Shown in pieces: positions 48,323 to 57,976 of a stretch of 63,659 nt of DNA. The notes beneath the pieces were generated by a model, which saw only the letters and a list, made by a program, of their open reading frames with translations, was not told the origin of the DNA and ran no database searches. The position numbers were made by a program, and so were the translations under genes. Origin of the DNA: Pedosphaera sp. (lineage in GTDB: Bacteria; Verrucomicrobiota; Verrucomicrobiia; Limisphaerales; UBA1096); contig JAKUOU010000001.1 in NCBI GenBank assembly GCA_022451065.1, positions 1 through 63,659 of the forward strand. The letters run 5' to 3'. Positions within the stretch are counted from its first letter, which is position 1. Each line of letters begins with the position of its first letter.

Positions 48323-49699
48323 ATGATGAACCGGACTCATTTTTCGAGAAGAAAGTTTCTGAAAGCCAACGGAGCGGCTGTGGCGCTGCCTTTTTTGCAT
48401 TCCATGCCGGGCGTGTTTGGCGCTGGAAGCAAGGTGGCCAAGCCCAGTAAAAAGCTGGCGATCATGTATATCCCTAACGGCATCGTGAGGCGGTGTTTTT
48501 TTCCGGGAGAGGAAAGCGGCGAGTTGCCAGACTTTGTTGGTGGGTTCAATGCCGACAAGACGAAGAACCAGAAGCGTAAGGAGAACTCCCCCGGCATTTA
48601 TCCGCTGGAGCTGACCTCGACGATGCAACCACTGAAGGATCACATGAAGGATGTGTCCCTGATCACCGGCTTGGACCGTACATTCAAGAACGGGCAGGAT
48701 GTGCATGCGCAGGGGGCGTCCTGTTATCTCACGAGTTTGTCGCCGGTTCAGGCGGCCGAGCAGGGGATCAAGCATCCAAACGGGCGCAGTCTCGATCAGG
48801 TGATTGGCGACAAGGTTGGGCACACGACGGCGTTTAAAACGCTTGAGATCGGTTGCAACGGGTTCACCGCTGGCAAGGAGTCTATTTATTTTGACAACAT
48901 CTCATGGTATGGGCCAGACAAGATTGCGCCGTCTATCCGGGATCCTCAAAAGCTCTATGAACGTTTGTTCGCAAAGGATAGTTTTCGGTCGCATGTGACC
49001 GAGGTCACGGATCTTGTGTTGGCCGATGCGAAATCGCTCTCACGAAAACTGGCTACGGAAGACCGAGCTACGCTCGATGAATTCATGACCATGATTCGCG
49101 ACGTGGAAGTACGCATGACCAGGCTCGAGAAACTGTTGACCAAAGCGGACATTCGTGTGCCGAAGAATGAAATATTGCCGCGCGGCGAGTACATCCGCCT
49201 GCAGGCGGACCTGATGCTTCTGGCGTTCCAGATGGGCATCACTAACATTTCCACATTCATGATCGGGCCGGAGCGCTGGGACGCCACTTTGATGTACGAG
49301 GGGGTGTTCGATAAACCAGTGCAGCATCACAACATGACCCATAATCAGAAGGGAAAGGGTTATCTTGAAGTACAGAAGATCGACATCTTCCACATGCAGC
49401 AATATGCCTATGTTCTCAAGCGCATGAAGGAGATCAAGGAGTCGGACGGTAGCACGATGCTCGACAATTCGCTGGTGACGTACGGAGCGGCATTGGGCGA
49501 CGGCTCGACGCATCAGTATTACGACCTGCCGATGATCGTGGCCGGGCGCGGCCAAGGTCAGATAAAGCAGGGTCGGTTTATCCAGTGCAAAAGCGGCACG
49601 CTGAACTCCAATCTATGGCTCTCGGTCGCGAAGCTGATGGGGCTGGAAATGGAATCGTTCGCGGACAGCACCGGTGTGGTCTCTGATATGTGGACATAG
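48323..49699 (+). CDS. DUF1552 protein, Tat-exported
   Basis: A 458-residue protein with a Tat-type signal ('FSRRKFLKANGAAVALPFLH'). The DUF1552 core has 'KLAIMYIPNGIVRRCFFPGE', 'DVHAQGASCYLTSL', 'FKTLEIGCNGFTAGKESIYF' and 'NISWYGPDKIAPSIRDPQK'. DUF1552 proteins are found almost only in Planctomycetes, Verrucomicrobia and related groups, paired with DUF1592-type c-cytochromes. Here the partner follows directly (49708). The reaction is unknown. A paralogue is at 55279. The 174 bp upstream is AT-rich and probably carries the promoter; a TATACT sits at 48310, but with no convincing -35. Confidence 0.9.
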   Translation: MMNRTHFSRRKFLKANGAAVALPFLHSMPGVFGAGSKVAKPSKKLAIMYIPNGIVRRCFFPGEESGELPDFVGGFNADKTKNQKRKENSPGIYPLELTSTMQPLKDHMKDVSLITGLDRTFKNGQDVHAQGASCYLTSLSPVQAAEQGIKHPNGRSLDQVIGDKVGHTTAFKTLEIGCNGFTAGKESIYFDNISWYGPDKIAPSIRDPQKLYERLFAKDSFRSHVTEVTDLVLADAKSLSRKLATEDRATLDEFMTMIRDVEVRMTRLEKLLTKADIRVPKNEILPRGEYIRLQADLMLLAFQMGITNISTFMIGPERWDATLMYEGVFDKPVQHHNMTHNQKGKGYLEVQKIDIFHMQQYAYVLKRMKEIKESDGSTMLDNSLVTYGAALGDGSTHQYYDLPMIVAGRGQGQIKQGRFIQCKSGTLNSNLWLSVAKLMGLEMESFADSTGVVSDMWT

Positions 49700-49707
49700 G
49701 TTTGCTG

Positions 49708-52581
49708 ATGTTTGCCCGACGGTTCATTCAACAGGGCGTTCTGCTTCTGTCGTTTCTCTATATCCTCGCAGCCCCGGCGGCCGATGAGTTTGAGCTAGTC
49801 CTAAAGCCGCTCTTTGCCAAGAACTGCGTGAAATGTCACGGCGGAGAAAAGGTAAAAGGCAAGGTCAATCTCAAGGAGATCGCTAACGCCAAGCAGTTCC
49901 TCGCCAAGCCGGAATTGATCAAGCAATTGATCGAGGTGATCGACGTGGCCGACATGCCGCCGGAGGACGAGCCTCGGCTGACCGAGGCACAGCGTGTGGA
50001 CCTGCTTGCCACGCTTAAGGCTCAGTTGCTCGCCGCCACCGCCACGGCCAAGAGTGCGCACATACCGCTCCGCCGCCTGAATCGATTCCAGTACAACAAT
50101 GCCGTGCGCGACCTCTTCCAACTGAACCGTGATGTGTTTGCGTTGCCGGAAAAACTAATGACGCGCCAGACCATCTACCTGAATGCACCTAAGATGCCTG
50201 ACCGCGTTAATGTACGTTCGCTCACTCTTAACCCTGCCGACGGCCTGCGTGAGGTGAAGGCCTTCCCGAAAGACCTGCGCGCATCGCACGGCTTTGACAA
50301 CCAAGCCAATCAACTCACGCTCTCGCCGCTGCTGCTCGATGCCTTCCTGAGGCTCAGCGTATCCATAGTCGAAAGCCCGGACTTCAACGAAAACACTGTT
50401 GGCATCTGGAACACCTTCTTCAAGCCCCCCGCCGAGGGCACCGATCTGTCGGCCGGTACGCGAAAGCGTATTGCGGCCTTTTTGAAGCGAGCCTTCCGCG
50501 GGCCGGTTGAGGCCGCCACGGTCGACCGCTACACCGCCTACGCGTTAGCCAAGATGAAGCAGGAGATGTCCTTTACCGACAGCATGAAAAAGGTCGCCTC
50601 CGCCGCACTGTCCTCGCCGATGTTCCTCTATCGCTATCCTGCCACCGATGCCAAGGCCTATACGCTGGCCTCCAATCTTTCCTTTTTCCTCTGGGCCAGC
50701 ACGCCTGACGCTGATCTGTTGCGCCTCGCTGGCAACGGCGACTTGATCGAGCCCGAGGTGTTGGACAAGACCATCGATCGCATGTTGGCCGATCCGAAGA
50801 TCGAGCGATTCCTCGATACGTTCCCCGTGCAGTGGATGCAACTCGAGAACATCCTAGCTGCTACGCCTGATCCCAAGAAACACCGTTTGTTCATGCTCGA
50901 CAAAAATCACCCCGCTAGCCTGCAGATGCTCTGTGAGCCGTTGCTGCTCTTTGACGCGGTCTTTGTCGAGGATCGCCCCATTGCCGAGCTCATTAAGCCC
51001 GCCTTCAGTTACCAAAGCGATTTTCTGAAAGACTGGTACACCAGCGACCTCAAGGCGCCGAAGGTGGATGAGAAAAAAATTATCGAGGAGAACAAGCCGA
51101 TCGAAGCCGAGCGCAAGGCTGCCCAGGAGGAAATCAAGTCCGCCCAGGCGCATTTGGATGATTTTGTGAACAGCATCCCTTCAATCATGGAAAAGAAAGC
51201 GGAGCAGATTGATTTAGCTGAGGGCCAAGCGCAGTGGGAAGCTGCTCAACAGAAGGCGTTGGCTGATAGTGTGGCACTTTCACCTTGGCACCGAATTGGG
51301 CCATTTGGTGCGGGTAACTTCGACGAAGCTCACTCCAAGGCATTTATCATCGAAACAGATGTCGATTTGAAAAAAACTTACGGCAAGCTGAAGTGGGAAC
51401 TCGCCGAAAATTTTGTGGATGGAAAGGTGCACAATCTAAGCGGAGGAAACAGTGCGACCTATCTTTACCGCACGATCCAATCTGGCGCAGCGCGGGAATT
51501 GGAGCTTTCGCTTGGTACCGATGACAGCTTTAGACTTTGGCTAAATGGCAGGTTGATCACCGATAAAAAAATCACCCGAGGAGTGGCACCTGATCAGGAC
51601 AAAGTTCGAGTGAGCCTGGCCAAGGGTGAAAACAAGCTGCTCTTCAAGATTGCAAACGGAGGTGGTGGCTACGCATTTTATTTCAGGACACAGTCAGTGC
51701 CGCTTCCGGTTCCAGTTGTTGCGGCCATGCAGACAGATGCAGCAAAACGTTCACATGAACAAACTCTCACCTTGGCCGGGCACTACCGTTCGATCGCTCC
51801 CGAGCTGGAGTCCGCCCGAAAAGAGGTAGCGGCGAAAAGGGAGGCTTTGGCGAAGGCGTTAAATCAAGATAAGGACAGGCTGAACCAACTTCCTAAACCG
51901 CGTAATCCAGATGAGGTGCAAAAGGAGATGAACCGCCGTTATGACGACGAGATGCGTAACAAACTTCGAGGCGGGACATTTCAACGAGTGGCAGCAAAAG
52001 ATCCGCGTTACGGTGGCGTAATCACCAGTGCCGCGATGCTGAGCATGACCTCTGGTCCGCGCCGGACTCATCCGATTGCTCGTGGCGCATGGATTATTGA
52101 GGTTATTTTTAACAACCCACCCCCGCCTCCACCAAATGATGTTCCGCCGCTGAACGAAGATGCTTCAGATAAGAACCTGACTATCCGAGAAAAGTTCGCC
52201 AAGCACCGTGAAAATCCCGACTGCGCCGGCTGCCATTCGAGGTTAGATCCACTTGGCTTTGCGATGGAGAATTTCGACATCACCGGCCGCTGGCGTGACA
52301 AATACGAAAACGGTCGCTCTGTCGACGCCAGTGGCATGTTGCTACGGAAATATGAATTCAAAGACATTGTCCGTTTTAAAGAATCGATCACAAAAGAAGA
52401 CCGCCGATTTGCCAAAGCCTTCACGGCTCATCTAATGCGGTTCGCGCTTTCCCGCGAATTGACGCCTGGCGATACGCTGACCATCGATCGAATCATAAAC
52501 AAGACAGCGAAAAAGAACTTCAGACTGAAGCCGTTACTCAAGGAAGTGATACGGAGTAAAAGCTTCCTTCAAAAAAACTAA
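49708..52581 (+). CDS. DUF1592/DUF1588-type c-cytochrome protein with inserted coiled-coil and beta domain
   Basis: A 957-residue secreted protein (signal segment 'GVLLLSFLYILAAPAADEF'). Haem motif C40-V-K-C43-H44 opens the PSCyt-type domain. DUF1587 ('PLRRLNRFQYNNAVRDLFQL'), DUF1595 ('LKRAFRGPVEAATVDRYTAY') and DUF1592 ('LASNLSFFLWASTPDADLL') follow. The C-terminal DUF1588/DUF1585 part has 'GGVITSAAMLSMTSGPRRTH' and a second CxxCH ('CAGCHSRLDPLGFAMENFD'). Between about residues 452 and 745 lies an extra segment: charged coiled-coil stretches around a beta-rich module ('GTDDSFRLWLNGRLI') resembling PA14-like domains. The paralogue at 52718 lacks it. GTG 49690 is an alternative start. Confidence 0.88.
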   Translation: MFARRFIQQGVLLLSFLYILAAPAADEFELVLKPLFAKNCVKCHGGEKVKGKVNLKEIANAKQFLAKPELIKQLIEVIDVADMPPEDEPRLTEAQRVDLLATLKAQLLAATATAKSAHIPLRRLNRFQYNNAVRDLFQLNRDVFALPEKLMTRQTIYLNAPKMPDRVNVRSLTLNPADGLREVKAFPKDLRASHGFDNQANQLTLSPLLLDAFLRLSVSIVESPDFNENTVGIWNTFFKPPAEGTDLSAGTRKRIAAFLKRAFRGPVEAATVDRYTAYALAKMKQEMSFTDSMKKVASAALSSPMFLYRYPATDAKAYTLASNLSFFLWASTPDADLLRLAGNGDLIEPEVLDKTIDRMLADPKIERFLDTFPVQWMQLENILAATPDPKKHRLFMLDKNHPASLQMLCEPLLLFDAVFVEDRPIAELIKPAFSYQSDFLKDWYTSDLKAPKVDEKKIIEENKPIEAERKAAQEEIKSAQAHLDDFVNSIPSIMEKKAEQIDLAEGQAQWEAAQQKALADSVALSPWHRIGPFGAGNFDEAHSKAFIIETDVDLKKTYGKLKWELAENFVDGKVHNLSGGNSATYLYRTIQSGAARELELSLGTDDSFRLWLNGRLITDKKITRGVAPDQDKVRVSLAKGENKLLFKIANGGGGYAFYFRTQSVPLPVPVVAAMQTDAAKRSHEQTLTLAGHYRSIAPELESARKEVAAKREALAKALNQDKDRLNQLPKPRNPDEVQKEMNRRYDDEMRNKLRGGTFQRVAAKDPRYGGVITSAAMLSMTSGPRRTHPIARGAWIIEVIFNNPPPPPPNDVPPLNEDASDKNLTIREKFAKHRENPDCAGCHSRLDPLGFAMENFDITGRWRDKYENGRSVDASGMLLRKYEFKDIVRFKESITKEDRRFAKAFTAHLMRFALSRELTPGDTLTIDRIINKTAKKNFRLKPLLKEVIRSKSFLQKN

Positions 52582-52717
52582 TGAACCTTTGATAGATTTT
52601 CCTTTCATTTATTGAGGATGGAGTAGTTTTAGGCGGCTGCAGTCGGATAACTCTGAATCGCTGAGGGGTTGCTTGGTTTTCATTGTCTAGGTCAACCTAT
52701 CACCGTATGATTTACGC

Positions 52718-55282
52718 GTGGTCCGCCAGTTCACAATTTTTTGCCTTATCTCGGTTGCTCAACTGCTTGGTCAAGCGGCGGAGCGGTTTGATTATCATTC
52801 CATCGGTAAGCAGCTGACGGTGGCGTCGCAGGGGATTTATGAAGGGGAACTGCATCTGCGCACGGAAGGGAAGGCACGACCACAGGAAATGCGCGGGTAT
52901 GGTGAAGGCTGGCGCGGGGACAGCCACCTGCTCTGGGACGGCGTGGTGGAGGAATCAAACGCGGTCCAGTTCGATATTTCCGAGGCGGGCAGGTACACGC
53001 TGGCGATGCAGTGGACTTCAGCCCCCGATTACGGGGTTTTCGAGGTGCAGCTGAACGGCAAGGTGATTGAGCCGCAACTGGATTTGTATTCGCCGCGTGT
53101 GAAACTGGCTGAGTTACGTGAACTGGGCGAGTTTGAGATGAAGGCAGGTGCTCAGCGTCTGGTTATCAAGCTTATCGGAGGCAACCCAAAGGCACAGAAG
53201 TTTCAGGGGAAGGGTTATTTGTATGGCTTGGATTATTTGAAGCTGACCGATCTTTCGCCCAAATCAGAGAAGCCCGAGGAGATCAAGCCCACGGCAGAGG
53301 CCCTGTTTAATTTGGACGACGCGCGCTTCATGATGAAGCAGTATTGTTTTCGCTGTCACGGAGTGAAAAAGGTGAAGGGCAAGGTGAACCTCGAGGCATT
53401 GGTCAAGCGCGCGGATTTCCTGAAGCACATCGAGATTACGCGGCACGCGGCGGAGATGATGGCCAAGGCGGAGATGCCGCCGGAGGACGAGAAGCAGCCG
53501 ACAAAGGTCGAACGTACAAAGCTTGCACACTTTTTCGACGACTTAGTGAACGAATATGTGCAATCAAATATGGAGCTCGAGCCGGTTGTGATGCGCCGGT
53601 TGAATCGCTACGAGTACAACAACGCGGTGCGCGATCTGTTGCAATTGCGCGGCGACATTTATCCGCTACCGGAGAAGGTGATTCGTTCCAGTAACTATTT
53701 CGATCCCTCCATTGGCCGCATGCCTGATACAGTAAATGCGGGCAACCGTACACTGGGTAAAAACATTGTGGAGAAACAAATCCTTAAGGGTGTCGACCCC
53801 TTTGCTATTGATCTTCAGGCCGAGCACGGCTTCAACAATCAGGGTGAGCAGTTGAGTATTGCACCTATCCTGCTGGAGAGCTTGCTAAAGCTGGGGCGTT
53901 CGATTGTGAACAGTCCGGAGTTTGACGGTTATTCGGGCCTGCGTAACACGTTTTTCGAGGATAACGGGAAACCGGTAGAGACGCGGCTGCGTATCTTTCT
54001 GGAGCGAGCCTTTCGTTCGCCGGTGGAGAACGCTGTACTGAGGCGCTACGCGGCGTTTCATGCCGCTGAGCAAAAACGTACCGGCTCATATACGCAGGCG
54101 ATGAAGTCCGTCGTGGCGGCCGTGCTCGCTTCACCGAAGTTTATCTACGTGGTGGAATCCAAGGATGGCGTTGGTAAGATGGCACCAGCTAGTGACTATG
54201 AGTTGGCGCAGCGCCTGGCGTTGTTTCTCTGGAGCAGCATTCCGGATGAGTCCCTGATGGCGGCCGTGCGCAAGGGTGAATTGCGCAACACTGAGGTGCT
54301 TGAGACTCAGGTGCGTCGCATGCTAAATGATCACCGTAGCCGCGCTCTCTCCGAGAACTTTGCGCGCCAATGGCTGCGGCTGGACCAACTCACCACTGCC
54401 GTGCCGGACTTTGATCGGTTTCAGGTTTACTACTCTCGCATCGGTTGTGAGCAGTGGAAGTTCGGTCTGCAAACCATGGTGGAGCCGCTGTTGCTTTTTG
54501 AAAGTGTGCAGGTGGAGGATCGCTCGATCATGCTGTTTGTCGACAGCAACTACTCATACCGTTCTGACGAGTTGCAGGCTTGGTACACGTCTCCAGGGAG
54601 CCCTTTTGGAAGCAAAGAAAATCGCAACCGTTTTAACACCAACACACAGAATTTCCGTAAGCGAATATTGCATAGTCGGCGGGAGGGCGGAGTGATTACC
54701 ACTGCTGCGGTGCTCACGATGACAGCAACGCCATTGCGCACAAGCCCCATCAAGCGTGGCGCGTGGGTGGCTACGACGATCTTCAATGATCCACCACCGC
54801 CGCCGCCCGATGTGGTCCCGGAGATCGAGGCGGATGATGCGGCCATCGAGGCCAAGGGCCTGACCATTCGCGAGCGCCTCAAGCAACACGCCACTGACCA
54901 GACCTGTGCTAGCTGCCACGCGCGCATCGATCCACTGGGTTTTGCGTTGGAGAGCTTCGATCCCATCGGGCGTTGGCGCGAAAAGTACAGCAGTGGCCTG
55001 CCTATCGACTCCAGTGGCAAACTGTTCGGCGAGGCTGAGTTCAAGGATATCGAGGCGTTCAAGGACGCCATTCTGGAGCGACCGGAAAAATTCATGCGCG
55101 CCTTCAGCGAGCATCTGTTGAGCTACGCGCTCGGCCGCGAGTTGAAGGTTACCGACAAGCCTTCGATCGACAAAATTACCCGGCGGGTCATGGCCGATCA
55201 CGGGCGCTTCTCCACCGTGGTGGTTGAGATTGCCAAGAGCCTCCCGTTCCGGCATAAAACCGGGCAGAACGAAAGCAAATGA
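52718..55282 (+). CDS. DUF1592/DUF1588-type c-cytochrome protein with N-terminal CBM-like domain
   Basis: An 854-residue protein starting at GTG 52718 (signal MVRQFTIFCLISVAQLLGQA). Residues 20-180 form an N-terminal beta domain ('YTLAMQWTSAPDYGVFEVQL', 'QRLVIKLIGGNPKAQ') similar to carbohydrate-binding modules. Haem motif C210-F-R-C213-H214 follows, then DUF1587 ('MRRLNRYEYNNAVRDLLQLR'), DUF1595 ('LERAFRSPVENAVLRRYAAF'), DUF1592 ('LAQRLALFLWSSIPDESLM'), DUF1588 ('GGVITTAAVLTMTATPLRTS') and DUF1585 with a second CxxCH ('TCASCHARIDPLGFALESFD'). It pairs with the DUF1552 gene that starts inside its stop. It is probably an exported multidomain cytochrome; the substrate is unknown. Confidence 0.88.
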   Translation: MVRQFTIFCLISVAQLLGQAAERFDYHSIGKQLTVASQGIYEGELHLRTEGKARPQEMRGYGEGWRGDSHLLWDGVVEESNAVQFDISEAGRYTLAMQWTSAPDYGVFEVQLNGKVIEPQLDLYSPRVKLAELRELGEFEMKAGAQRLVIKLIGGNPKAQKFQGKGYLYGLDYLKLTDLSPKSEKPEEIKPTAEALFNLDDARFMMKQYCFRCHGVKKVKGKVNLEALVKRADFLKHIEITRHAAEMMAKAEMPPEDEKQPTKVERTKLAHFFDDLVNEYVQSNMELEPVVMRRLNRYEYNNAVRDLLQLRGDIYPLPEKVIRSSNYFDPSIGRMPDTVNAGNRTLGKNIVEKQILKGVDPFAIDLQAEHGFNNQGEQLSIAPILLESLLKLGRSIVNSPEFDGYSGLRNTFFEDNGKPVETRLRIFLERAFRSPVENAVLRRYAAFHAAEQKRTGSYTQAMKSVVAAVLASPKFIYVVESKDGVGKMAPASDYELAQRLALFLWSSIPDESLMAAVRKGELRNTEVLETQVRRMLNDHRSRALSENFARQWLRLDQLTTAVPDFDRFQVYYSRIGCEQWKFGLQTMVEPLLLFESVQVEDRSIMLFVDSNYSYRSDELQAWYTSPGSPFGSKENRNRFNTNTQNFRKRILHSRREGGVITTAAVLTMTATPLRTSPIKRGAWVATTIFNDPPPPPPDVVPEIEADDAAIEAKGLTIRERLKQHATDQTCASCHARIDPLGFALESFDPIGRWREKYSSGLPIDSSGKLFGEAEFKDIEAFKDAILERPEKFMRAFSEHLLSYALGRELKVTDKPSIDKITRRVMADHGRFSTVVVEIAKSLPFRHKTGQNESK

Positions 55283-56577
55283 ATGTACTGAAAGAAACGC
55301 AAATCCCGAGGCGTACTTTCCTGCGCGGCTGCGGCGCGGCACTGGCGCTGCCGTTACTTGATGCGATGCAGGCCAGCGGTGCGAAGTCCGTACAGCCGCC
55401 CAAGCGCGTGGCGTTTTTTTACACGCCTAACGGCGTGGCGCAAACGGCGTGGCACCCGGCTGAGACCGGCCACAACTTCGCCTTAAGTCGTACGCTCCAG
55501 CCGTTGGAACCTCTACGCAAAAAGATTTCACTCTTCACTAATCTTGATCGCGTGAAAGTGCCGGGGACCGATGGGCACGCGCAGGCCGGCGCGTGTTACC
55601 TCAGCACCGCTGCGCCTGATGAACTTTCACCCGCGGGTTATCCCCTCAAGCGGACCATCGACCAGGTCATTGCCGACACCGCCGGCAAGGCTACGCCCTT
55701 CCGTTCGCTTGAGCTCTCATGCAACAGCTTTACCGACAACCGCGAGTCGGTTTATTTCGACAATATCTCTTGGTACGGCCACGGCCATGTGGCGCGTTCC
55801 ATCAAGGATCCGCGCAAGGTCTTTCAGCGTTTGTTCAATGTAAAGGAACATCGCGCCAACAGCAGCCTGCTCGATCTCGTGTTGGCCGATGCCCAAGATT
55901 TGCAGGGTAAACTCGGTCGACTCGACCGCCACAAGCTCGACGAGTATATGGACTCGGTGCGTACTGTGGAGCAGCAGATCGAGCGCATCACCAAGCGTCA
56001 GGTGGATATTCGCGACATTGACCTTGAGGAGCCGGAAAAACTTTGGACCACGATGCGCCGTGATGAATACATTCAGATCATGGGTGATTTGATGATTCTT
56101 GCACTGCAAACTGACCTCACGCGCGTGAGTTCCATGATGGTTGCGCCTGAGCGCTGGTCCACGCCGCTGATGTTCGAGGATGTGTTTGTGAAACCCATCG
56201 ATCATCACGGCTGGACACACAATCAAAAGAATGCCGAGGTACTGGGTGATCTCGAGAAACTCGATCATTTTCACATGCGCCAATTCGCGCGCATCAGTGC
56301 CAAGATGGATGCCATCCAGGAAGGTGAAGGAACGTTGCTCGACAACATGATGTTTACCTACGGCTCCGGCCTCAGCAGCGGTATGTTGCACGAATGCACC
56401 AATCTGCCCACCGTGATTGCCGGCAGTGCGGGTGGTCTTCTAAAAACCAACCGTCACGAACAGCACGCCAAGGGCACCCCCATCGCCAATCTCTGGGTTT
56501 CCATGGCCCAAATCATGGGCGTGAAAACCAACCGACTCGGAGATAGCAACGGTTCTCTCAAAGGCTTTCTCGCATAA
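55279..56577 (+). CDS. DUF1552 protein, Tat-exported (second copy)
   Basis: A 432-residue DUF1552 protein with a Tat-type signal ('IPRRTFLRGCGAALALPLLD'). Core blocks parallel the copy at 48323: 'RVAFFYTPNGVAQTAWHPAE', 'DGHAQAGACYLSTAAPDELS', 'FRSLELSCNSFTDNRESVYF' and 'NISWYGHGHVARSIKDPRKV'. The start overlaps the stop of the cytochrome-type gene (ATGA), so the pair should be made together. Its function is unknown. A sulfatase gene starts 19 bp downstream. Confidence 0.9.
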   Translation: MNVLKETQIPRRTFLRGCGAALALPLLDAMQASGAKSVQPPKRVAFFYTPNGVAQTAWHPAETGHNFALSRTLQPLEPLRKKISLFTNLDRVKVPGTDGHAQAGACYLSTAAPDELSPAGYPLKRTIDQVIADTAGKATPFRSLELSCNSFTDNRESVYFDNISWYGHGHVARSIKDPRKVFQRLFNVKEHRANSSLLDLVLADAQDLQGKLGRLDRHKLDEYMDSVRTVEQQIERITKRQVDIRDIDLEEPEKLWTTMRRDEYIQIMGDLMILALQTDLTRVSSMMVAPERWSTPLMFEDVFVKPIDHHGWTHNQKNAEVLGDLEKLDHFHMRQFARISAKMDAIQEGEGTLLDNMMFTYGSGLSSGMLHECTNLPTVIAGSAGGLLKTNRHEQHAKGTPIANLWVSMAQIMGVKTNRLGDSNGSLKGFLA

Positions 56578-56596: not shown

Positions 56597-57976
56597 ATGA
56601 AAGTTTTGTTCGCGCTTTTTATTGCGGCGGTTTCACTTTCAGCTGCACCGAATTATGTACTGATTTTTTGTGATGATCTCGGGTATGGCGACCTGGGGTG
56701 TTATGGGTCGAAGCAAAACCGCACACCTCGTATTGATCAGCTGGCGCGCGAAGGCATGCGGTTCACTGATTTTTATTCCTCTAGCCCCGTGTGCACCCCT
56801 TCGCGTGCGAGCCTGATGACCGGCTGCTACGCGCGGCGGGTGGGGATGCACGAGGATTTCACCGGGCACTGGGTGCTCATCCCGCGCAGTCGTCGTGGGC
56901 TCAGCCCCAACGAGTTGACTTTACCTGAGGCGCTCAAGGCCGAGGGTTATACCACCGCATGCATTGGCAAATGGCATCTTGGCGATCAACCGCCGCATCT
57001 GCCCACTGCGCACGGTTTTGATGAATACTATGGTATTCCCTATTCCAATGACATGGCCAGCAAACGTCGCGGTGATCCGCCTTTGCCGTTGGTAAAACAA
57101 AATAATGTGATCGAAGCACCGGCCAATCAAGCCACACTTACGCAGCGTTACACAAGGGAAGCGGTAAACTTTATCGAACGCAATCGCAAGCGACCGTTCT
57201 TACTGTATCTACCGCACACTTTCCCACATCTCCCGCTCTTTGCCTCGAAGGACTTTCACGGCAAAAGCGCCAACGGGCGTTATGGTGATTCGGTGGAGGA
57301 GATCGATTGGTCCACCGGCCAGATTTTGAATGCGCTTGAAAAGCACGGTCTTGAGAAAAACACACTTGTGATTTTCACCTCGGACAACGGCTCCAACGGC
57401 CGCAATGGCGGTTCCAATGCGCCCTTGTCAGGTTACAAGGGGAGCACGATGGAAGGCGGCATGCGTGTGCCAATGATCGCCCGCTGGCCCGGCCGCATTC
57501 CTGCCGACAGCAAATGTAGTGCACTGGCCAGCACCATGGATTTTTTGCCGACCTTCTGCGCACTTAGTGAAGCCAAGCTGTCCAAAAACAAAATCGATGG
57601 GCACAACATCGCGCCGTTGTTATTCGGAGACGAGGAATCCTCCCGAAACGAGGCATTTTTTTATTATCGGCGTCGCCAGCTTCAGGCCATCCGCTGGGGC
57701 GATTGGAAATGGCATCTTCCTTTGAAGAACACATTTCCAGCGTGGACCACACCGAACAACAAGGGCAGTGGACGACCTGGTAAGTTGGTGAATCTCAAAA
57801 CAGATCTCGGTGAGAAGATCAACGTTCAGAAGGAGAACCCCAAAGTGATGGTCAGGATGAAACAACTCGCTGCCCAAGCCGTCACCCAACTCGGAAACGA
57901 AGCCAAGCCCGGCACGAAGACACGTGAGGCAATGACTTTGGATTCCTCCAAGCCAATGGTTTTATCCAAACGATAA
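56597..57976 (+). CDS. Secreted sulfatase (arylsulfatase A-like)
   Basis: A 459-residue sulfatase with a signal peptide (MKVLFALFIAAVSLSAAPNY). 'YVLIFCDDLGYGDLGCYGS' holds the metal Asp pair, and 'SSPVCTPSRASLMTGCYARR' the C66-T-P-S-R70 motif. 'CIGKWHLGDQ', 'VIFTSDNGSNGRNGGSNAPL' and 'GYKGSTMEGGMRVPMIARWP' are typical arylsulfatase-A-family blocks. It follows the second DUF1552 gene on the same strand, suggesting that the cytochrome/DUF1552 pair is expressed with sulfatase functions. The 138-bp gap downstream holds only a 29-codon frame of doubtful status. Confidence 0.93.
   Translation: MKVLFALFIAAVSLSAAPNYVLIFCDDLGYGDLGCYGSKQNRTPRIDQLAREGMRFTDFYSSSPVCTPSRASLMTGCYARRVGMHEDFTGHWVLIPRSRRGLSPNELTLPEALKAEGYTTACIGKWHLGDQPPHLPTAHGFDEYYGIPYSNDMASKRRGDPPLPLVKQNNVIEAPANQATLTQRYTREAVNFIERNRKRPFLLYLPHTFPHLPLFASKDFHGKSANGRYGDSVEEIDWSTGQILNALEKHGLEKNTLVIFTSDNGSNGRNGGSNAPLSGYKGSTMEGGMRVPMIARWPGRIPADSKCSALASTMDFLPTFCALSEAKLSKNKIDGHNIAPLLFGDEESSRNEAFFYYRRRQLQAIRWGDWKWHLPLKNTFPAWTTPNNKGSGRPGKLVNLKTDLGEKINVQKENPKVMVRMKQLAAQAVTQLGNEAKPGTKTREAMTLDSSKPMVLSKR

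Follow-up and report, generated by a model that had tools for sequence, protein, structure and literature searches.

Some Verrucomicrobiota and Planctomycetota encode numerous planctomycete-type cytochromes, built from PSCyt and PSD domains. In the sections of He et al. (2017, mSphere, PMC5615132) devoted to these proteins, the function is described as unknown; carbohydrate-binding modules (CBMs), Laminin_G_3 and PA14 among them, are encoded by some PSCyt genes as well, frequently close to sulfatase genes, and the architectures are sorted into groups. A further point of reference is Cbp2D of Cellvibrio japonicus, presented in PMC8981238 as a multi-domain c-type cytochrome annotated with DUF1587 and CBM2. 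According to the same account, growth on cellulose is slower when cbp2D and cbp2E are knocked out, and one Cbp2D haem domain reduces lytic polysaccharide monooxygenases (LPMOs). A Cellvibrio "DUF1592 domain-containing protein" is listed with CBM2 in a table of PMC6004670. Here we describe a planctomycete-type cytochrome, P0001, encoded in Pedosphaera sp. (assembly GCA_022451065.1, contig JAKUOU010000001.1, positions 1 to 63,659; this whole stretch of 63,659 nucleotides is referred to as the window). Between its PSD4 and PSCyt3 domains lies a cassette consisting of a predicted coiled-coil stalk and a globular tip, and its exchange among close relatives is well supported.

An insert with a predicted stalk between PSD4 and PSCyt3

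A preliminary description of the window had noted about 270 extra residues in the protein encoded at 49708 compared with its paralogue at 52718. The extra block is real: by one yardstick, 323 residues separate PSD4 (end at residue 450) from PSCyt3 (start at 775) in P0001, against 32 in the paralogue, and no Pfam domain above its cut-off lies in this interval of P0001. The size had been set slightly low, the exchangeable unit being 305 residues long, or ~290 net. The motifs FSYQSDFLKDWYTSDL (residues 439-454), KLRGGTFQRVAAKDPRYGG (758-776), GTDDSFRLWLNGRLI (609-623) and NKLLFKIANGGGGYAFYF (648-665) were found at the positions given for them.

We found 20 PSD4 proteins in the source draft genome, P0001 included. 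In 18 of the other 19, PSD4 and PSCyt3 are 13-34 residues apart; in the remaining one, L020 (own genome, C71), an unlike linker of 141 residues occupies the same site. By a second yardstick, the empty site measures 14-27 residues in 12 shorter relatives of the same order, which are 40-52% identical in the N part of the scaffold. The short site in these two sets rules out an ancient insert common to all DUF1592 proteins. It is not a product of chance either, because it was matched at E ≤ 1e-60 in 14 of the 21 draft genomes of the genus, nearly at full length in 13 of the 14. Nor is the block peculiar to one protein, as had been proposed: a cassette or its start is present at all 80 near-orthologue loci described below, and homologues occur in DUF1549/DUF1553 proteins. 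Relatives across the order and in named genomes exclude that it is unique to P0001.

An AlphaFold2 (AF2) model of P0001, based on an 84-row alignment (predicted local distance difference test, pLDDT, 79.5; predicted template modelling score, pTM, 0.67), places eight strands between residues 534 and 667, with two helices before them and four after, the first of these at 674-681 (the other helices are given in the table). Prediction for the full protein therefore bears out the separate module of coil, beta domain and coil that had been proposed. Antiparallel packing of the helices would follow from the topology, since the chain must return. The model of a form with the other tip described below, LamG-type L126 (pLDDT 83.4, pTM 0.70), has a helix at 438-482, a beta domain and return helices at 707-729 and 736-755; the 45-residue outgoing helix is thus common to the models of both forms.

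In a VIA-align comparison of residues 531-669, the top match was a GH2-type beta-galactosidase (Z 11.0), and beta-glucuronidase 6cxs (Z 10.7, root-mean-square deviation 2.7, 115 aligned residues), a GH31 enzyme (Z 10.1) and the periplasmic sensor domain of RetS (Z 9.7) were also among the listed chains, which cover Z 9.3-11.0, 109-121 residues and 8-20% identity. The GH31 match is presumably the PA14 insert of that enzyme. Foldseek likewise ranked GH31 and PA14 chains at the top for the jelly-roll model (best E 1.8e-3, PA14 domain chains from E 2.6e-3). The suggested likeness to PA14/sugar-binding domains thus holds at the level of the fold, with GH2/GH31 accessory domains and weak Foldseek matches to PA14. 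It does not extend to membership of Pfam PA14 (PF07691), which matched neither P0001 at E ≤ 1 nor the insert; in the DUF1549 relative L038 this profile reached 14.1 bits, below its cut-off of 24. The insert reached the cut-off of no Pfam family (PA14, GH2 and Laminin_G_3, PF13385, included), a sequence search of P0001 against solved structures gave nothing significant (best E 0.54), and none of the five proteins searched had an NCBIfam match.

Among 46 distinct tips, D577, Y591, N619, L643, G646, K653, N656 and F665 are invariant, and D611 (44/46), D612 (45/46) and Q636 (45/46) are nearly so. The retention of D612, N619, Q636 and N656 in at least 45 of the 46, across two host families, suggests a ligand site.

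Alternation of two tips on one scaffold

A search of named genomes with an orthologue alignment as query yielded 335 relatives, of which the best 80 were kept by similarity to P0001, some of them cut by a contig end. Most of their records bear the names Verrucomicrobiota or Planctomycetota, and some labels are odd. The titles of five metagenome-assembled genomes (MAGs) at L064, L091, L115, L123 and L136 (Halieaceae, Kuenenia, actinobacterium, Euryarchaeota) do not suit the genes and are probably errors of binning or naming. All 80 loci have the cassette or its start, with a jelly-roll tip in 18 and a LamG-type tip in 62; as the loci were chosen by similarity to P0001, this count is valid for near orthologues, and the other 255 relatives may hold further tip kinds. 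Among the 18, L080 and L082 are more divergent and L068 is in a broken frame. L068 and L030 each have the DUF1592 gene broken into two frames ahead of the cassette, through a frameshift, decay or sequencing error; the jelly-roll cassette of L068 lies on the second open reading frame (ORF).

The LamG-type insert measures 320-338 residues where complete. All 62 score at least 190 bits against the LamG cassette of L127, and two LamG-type orthologues tested gave 61.6 and 51 bits for PF13385 (cut-off 27.6), a family for which Pfam gave no match to the window tip. By eye, the stalk ends of the two kinds are alike, and identity rises to 30-75% over the last 20-40 residues of the cassette. At E ≤ 1e-3 the window cassette, mainly its C end, weakly matches 23 of the 62 LamG-type rows and has no such match to the other 39. 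Even one genus, g67, holds both forms (jelly-roll in G144, G174 and G196, LamG in G075 and G185).

In a quick scaffold tree built without the cassette columns, the tip changes 6 times over 80 labelled rows, L068 being labelled "unknown" owing to its broken frame. A careful tree without these columns, with 26 clade rows and 3 outgroups, has 5 tip changes, 4 of them forced by starred branches; its group was picked after the quick tree had been seen, and it omits L064 (a near-copy of L062), L068, L080 and L082. Placing the 15 jelly-roll rows in one clade was rejected, at a cost of 399 log units (p value of the approximately unbiased test, p_AU, 3.6e-86). Alignment A3 comprised 16 jelly-roll proteins and 34 LamG-type proteins, entered as two pieces without the cassette. 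For 24 of the 81 rows, scaffold identity is 77.9% within and 75.4% between tip kinds, while cassettes of one kind share 65.1% identity (133 pairs) and cassettes of different kinds 25.7% (143 pairs, maximum 32.6).

The DNA of single pairs gives the same picture. Jelly-roll locus L069 and LamG locus L074 are collinear: the 2.8 kb upstream of the cassette are 93.8% identical, the 5.6 kb downstream of it 96.5%, and between these flanks ~1.0 kb, the cassette, is unlike; the gene parts before and after it are 93.1% and 91.2% identical. The borders lie near the codons for "YQS.FL..WY" and "RYGGIITSAAML". L060 and L126 share 87% on both sides (1.5 and 1.9 kb; gene parts 89.8% and 83.9%). L061 and L127 are 91.4% identical before the cassette and 75.2% after it, so the exchanged stretch may extend into the end of the gene. 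Mosaic genes were also seen: L061, set against L127/L128, has different nearest relatives on the two sides of the cassette, and in L072 the N part is closest to jelly-roll genes and the C part to L074, L128 and L069 (73-74%). Since tip kinds alternate between closely related scaffolds, at the loci compared the cassette has been replaced several times.

Comparison of cassette and scaffold trees (13 and 14 of the 81 rows) revealed no starred conflict for the jelly-roll module (13 rows). LamG cassettes agree with their scaffolds in part; L081 and L075/L077/L095/L129 are discordant.

A shared tip pool and competing explanations

DUF1549/DUF1553 cytochromes, too, carry tips of both kinds, often between PSCyt2 and PSD1, so that two protein families share them. 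In the source genome, the block's two best relatives (42% and 35% identity) are in DUF1549/DUF1553 proteins, between PSCyt2 and PSD1 according to Pfam. An order-wide search gave matches at E ≤ 1e-10 in 111 of 196 genomes; of 30 jelly-roll loci fetched from the order, the host is of the DUF1592 family in 11 (50-100% identity) and of the DUF1549 family in 19 (37-58%). Across the phylum, 28 of 288 genomes, the source genome included, had a match, mostly weak. The window tip is 54-58% identical to L038/L039 over 236-253 residues. In a tree of the 46 tips, 19 DUF1592 tips and 4 DUF1549 tips (L038, L039, L138 and L144, all genus g67) form a 100/99 clade, and the other 23 DUF1549 tips lie outside it. 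Such a mixed clade indicates that the tip crossed between the families, in one direction or the other. Module matches below 75 bits, hosts of unclear family and four repeat loci were left out of this tree, and 11 identical rows were merged; several G loci duplicate loci of the L057-L136 range.

Of 30 LamG loci fetched in the genus search, 15 carry LamG between PSCyt2 and PSD1 (own-genome L196 was confirmed by Pfam), 11 show PSD1 in a cut frame, 4 have neither and 0 have the DUF1592 scaffold. In the 11 cut frames LamG comes after PSD1, except in L200. Pfam places it there in L185, and local matches do so in L202-L208; the frames of these proteins have ~1060-1390 residues.

Further variants were observed in the DUF1549/DUF1553 proteins of the source genome. 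L022 (C178) has an F5/8 type C domain ahead of the jelly-roll module, between PSCyt2 and PSD1, and L025 (C124) has an insert in the same place with coil-like ends by eye and a middle without a Pfam match. Relatives of the jelly-roll module at L024 (own genome, C199), L140-L143 and L150 score 28-44 bits in frames of 381-488 residues, in which no cytochrome scaffold was detected.

We favour the reading that the insert is a binding head on a stalk, that recombination swaps it as an allelic cassette, and that it docks the cytochrome to a glycan or envelope target; we give this reading a probability of roughly 0.6. The well-supported part is the exchange; docking by the tip is what we infer. A coiled-coil stalk would leave and re-enter the cytochrome body between PSD4 and PSCyt3, with the globular beta domain at its far end. 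As the stalk ends of the two kinds are still alike, the first tip change probably took place by in-frame recombination inside the coil. In later exchanges, homologous recombination via the conserved scaffold would have moved the cassette in full, at times together with the downstream half of the gene. The putative binding head, probably for a glycan or other envelope ligand, would place the secreted two-haem cytochrome with some nanometres between head and body, and a new tip would mean a new docking target for constant electron-transfer parts. Wholesale change of the head on a constant haem scaffold suggests that the protein's encounters are determined by its head. L069 and L074, near-isogenic genes with different heads, are a natural experiment in this respect, and a comparison of their ligands bears directly on whether such cytochromes act on polysaccharides.

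Several observations weigh against this reading. The Foldseek E-values of the jelly-roll model are weak, none being ≤ 0.001, and sugar binding is not obligatory for jelly rolls. The conserved G-S-D-D motif is lost in L080, and the pair L080/L082, which has a long branch, may have been acquired independently. Module cassettes have diverged together with their scaffolds and are therefore not freely mobile. For the L069 cassette no donor was found among the top 30 rows: barring L071 (97%) and copies, its relatives are 46-53% identical. Finally, the titles of 77 of the 80 records identify them as metagenome assemblies.

Random import agrees less well with the cassette data than old alleles that have persisted in several lineages. 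We can tentatively imagine that the two cassettes are long-lived alleles maintained across species and genera by balancing selection (exerted by changing glycan targets, or by phages or predators using the head), with recombination homogenising the flanks. This would be a trans-species dimorphism in the binding head of an extracytoplasmic cytochrome, fed by a tip pool that a second cytochrome family shares.

It is unlikely, in our opinion, that coil and tip are instead a structural or assembly element (for dimerisation, spacing or binding of the DUF1552 partner) in which tip identity is nearly neutral. A stalk of constant length despite the change of tip would agree with this, as would the DUF1552 gene adjoining in both the window and L069. 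However, that gene lies within the upstream stretch that is nearly unchanged between L069 and L074, so both tips have the same partner, which makes a match between head and partner unlikely; the residues kept across two host families point to a ligand site instead.

Slightly less likely still is a history of two old paralogous genes, one per tip, in which lineage loss and gene conversion of the scaffold make the alternation a matter of loss, not exchange. Old alleles or paralogues would both be expected to give the conflict-free module tree, and the partial congruence of LamG cassettes is in line with them. Yet both forms occupy the same collinear locus, as in L069 and L074. In all 12 draft genomes checked, those from which the key loci come, at most one long-form gene was found (in L071 and L128 a contig end cuts the gene). 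In the window's genus, the jelly-roll form is present in 14 of the 21 draft genomes and no LamG-type orthologue was detected in the 21, where LamG matches are at most 44% identical. Gene conversion reaching both cassette borders would be needed regardless.

That the mixed genes are chimeras from metagenome assembly or binning of related strains, as the record titles and the ability of assemblers to cross over at flanks of 90-96% identity might suggest, is very hard to believe: L069 and L071 (isolates ANT-88 and ANT-112, probably of one project) are 97.3% identical through the cassette, arrangements recur (L127/L128 95.2%, window/L057 91.3%), the LamG forms L075, L076 and L081 come from records without a MAG title and with names that read as single-cell-like, no source for the joined-in part was found (among the loci compared, apart from L071 and copies, the L069 cassette has no relative above 53%), and frames are open across both borders in the compared pairs.

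Host gene, surroundings and described systems

P0001 contains PSD3, PSD5, PSD4, PSCyt3 and PSD2 (DUF1587/1595/1592/1588/1585), each above its Pfam cut-off. Its ORF is open from 49690 (49690-52578 in the window), and the ATG at 49708 is followed by a signal-peptide-like stretch. Both CxxCH haem motifs are present; in alignment A4, which covers 47 of 61 LamG-type proteins, none of the 47 rows departs from their C, C and H.

Features of the host gene, its cassette and its partner gene in the window (aa, residues of P0001)
Feature	Positions	Strand	Basis
DUF1552 (HXXSHH) partner gene	48323..49699	+	Pfam
DUF1592-type two-haem cytochrome gene with cassette (P0001)	49708..52581	+	ORF, Pfam, sequence
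First haem motif CVKCH (aa 46-50)	49825..49839	+	sequence
PSD3 / DUF1587, best stretch (aa 187-228)	50248..50373	+	Pfam
PSD5 / DUF1595 (aa 258-316)	50461..50637	+	Pfam
PSD4 / DUF1592 (aa 323-450), 5' flank of cassette	50656..51039	+	Pfam
Whole exchangeable cassette, stalk and tip (aa 454-758)	51049..51963	+	motif positions, comparison of relatives
Outgoing stalk helix, 45 residues (aa 461-505)	51070..51204	+	AF2 model
Second outgoing helix (aa 510-526)	51217..51267	+	AF2 model
Jelly-roll tip (aa 531-669), signature G-S/T-D-D...W-L-N-G...R-G-x-A-P-D-Q	51280..51696	+	AF2, structure comparison, conservation
First return helix (aa 689-702)	51754..51795	+	AF2 model
Return stalk helix (aa 704-733)	51799..51888	+	AF2 model
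Last stalk helix (aa 740-760), sequence like that of LamG-type orthologues	51907..51969	+	AF2, sequence comparison
PSCyt3 / DUF1588 (aa 775-871), 3' flank of cassette	52012..52302	+	Pfam
Second haem motif CAGCH (aa 845-849)	52222..52236	+	sequence
PSD2 / DUF1585 (aa 889-959)	52354..52566	+	Pfam

The gene belongs to a tandem of two DUF1552-DUF1592 pairs (48323-56577), with the cassette in the first pair only; a sulfatase gene at 56597 lies downstream of both. At L069, the genes that follow encode a protein with a cytochrome c domain and a sugar-binding type of periplasmic binding protein (Peripla_BP_4). The sulfatase and Peripla_BP_4 neighbourhoods agree with glycan metabolism, as weak evidence. 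For the paralogue at 52718, said to carry a different binding-like domain at its N-terminus, positions 52775-53290 matched 0 Pfam families at E ≤ 0.1.

The proteins treated in PMC5615132 belong to the same families as P0001 and its relatives (PSCyt1-3, PSD1-5). In the sections on their architectures, that paper describes no stalk, common insertion site, unannotated jelly-roll tip or exchange of tips between orthologues, and the words "coiled" and "recombination" are absent from its main text. Cbp2D, likened here by its description, resembles P0001 in joining a DUF1587-bearing cytochrome to a further domain, CBM2 in its case and a putative binding head in P0001; insertion between PSD4 and PSCyt3 is not among the features given for it in PMC8981238. 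Within the open-licence literature of PubMed Central, a scope outside which most subscription papers fall, we found neither tip exchange nor a cassette on a stalk at this site described.

The LamG (PF13385) tips of the orthologues share the insertion site and similar stalk helices with the window and differ in the beta domain. The accessory jelly rolls of PA14, GH2 and GH31 proteins resemble the window tip in fold, whereas the latter is stalk-borne, sits in a cytochrome and has no Pfam match. Allelic cassette exchange, which to our knowledge has not been described for any c-type cytochrome, is familiar from bacterial surface proteins, where a variable central domain between conserved flanks is replaced by homologous recombination, and the arrangement of domains seen here is the same.

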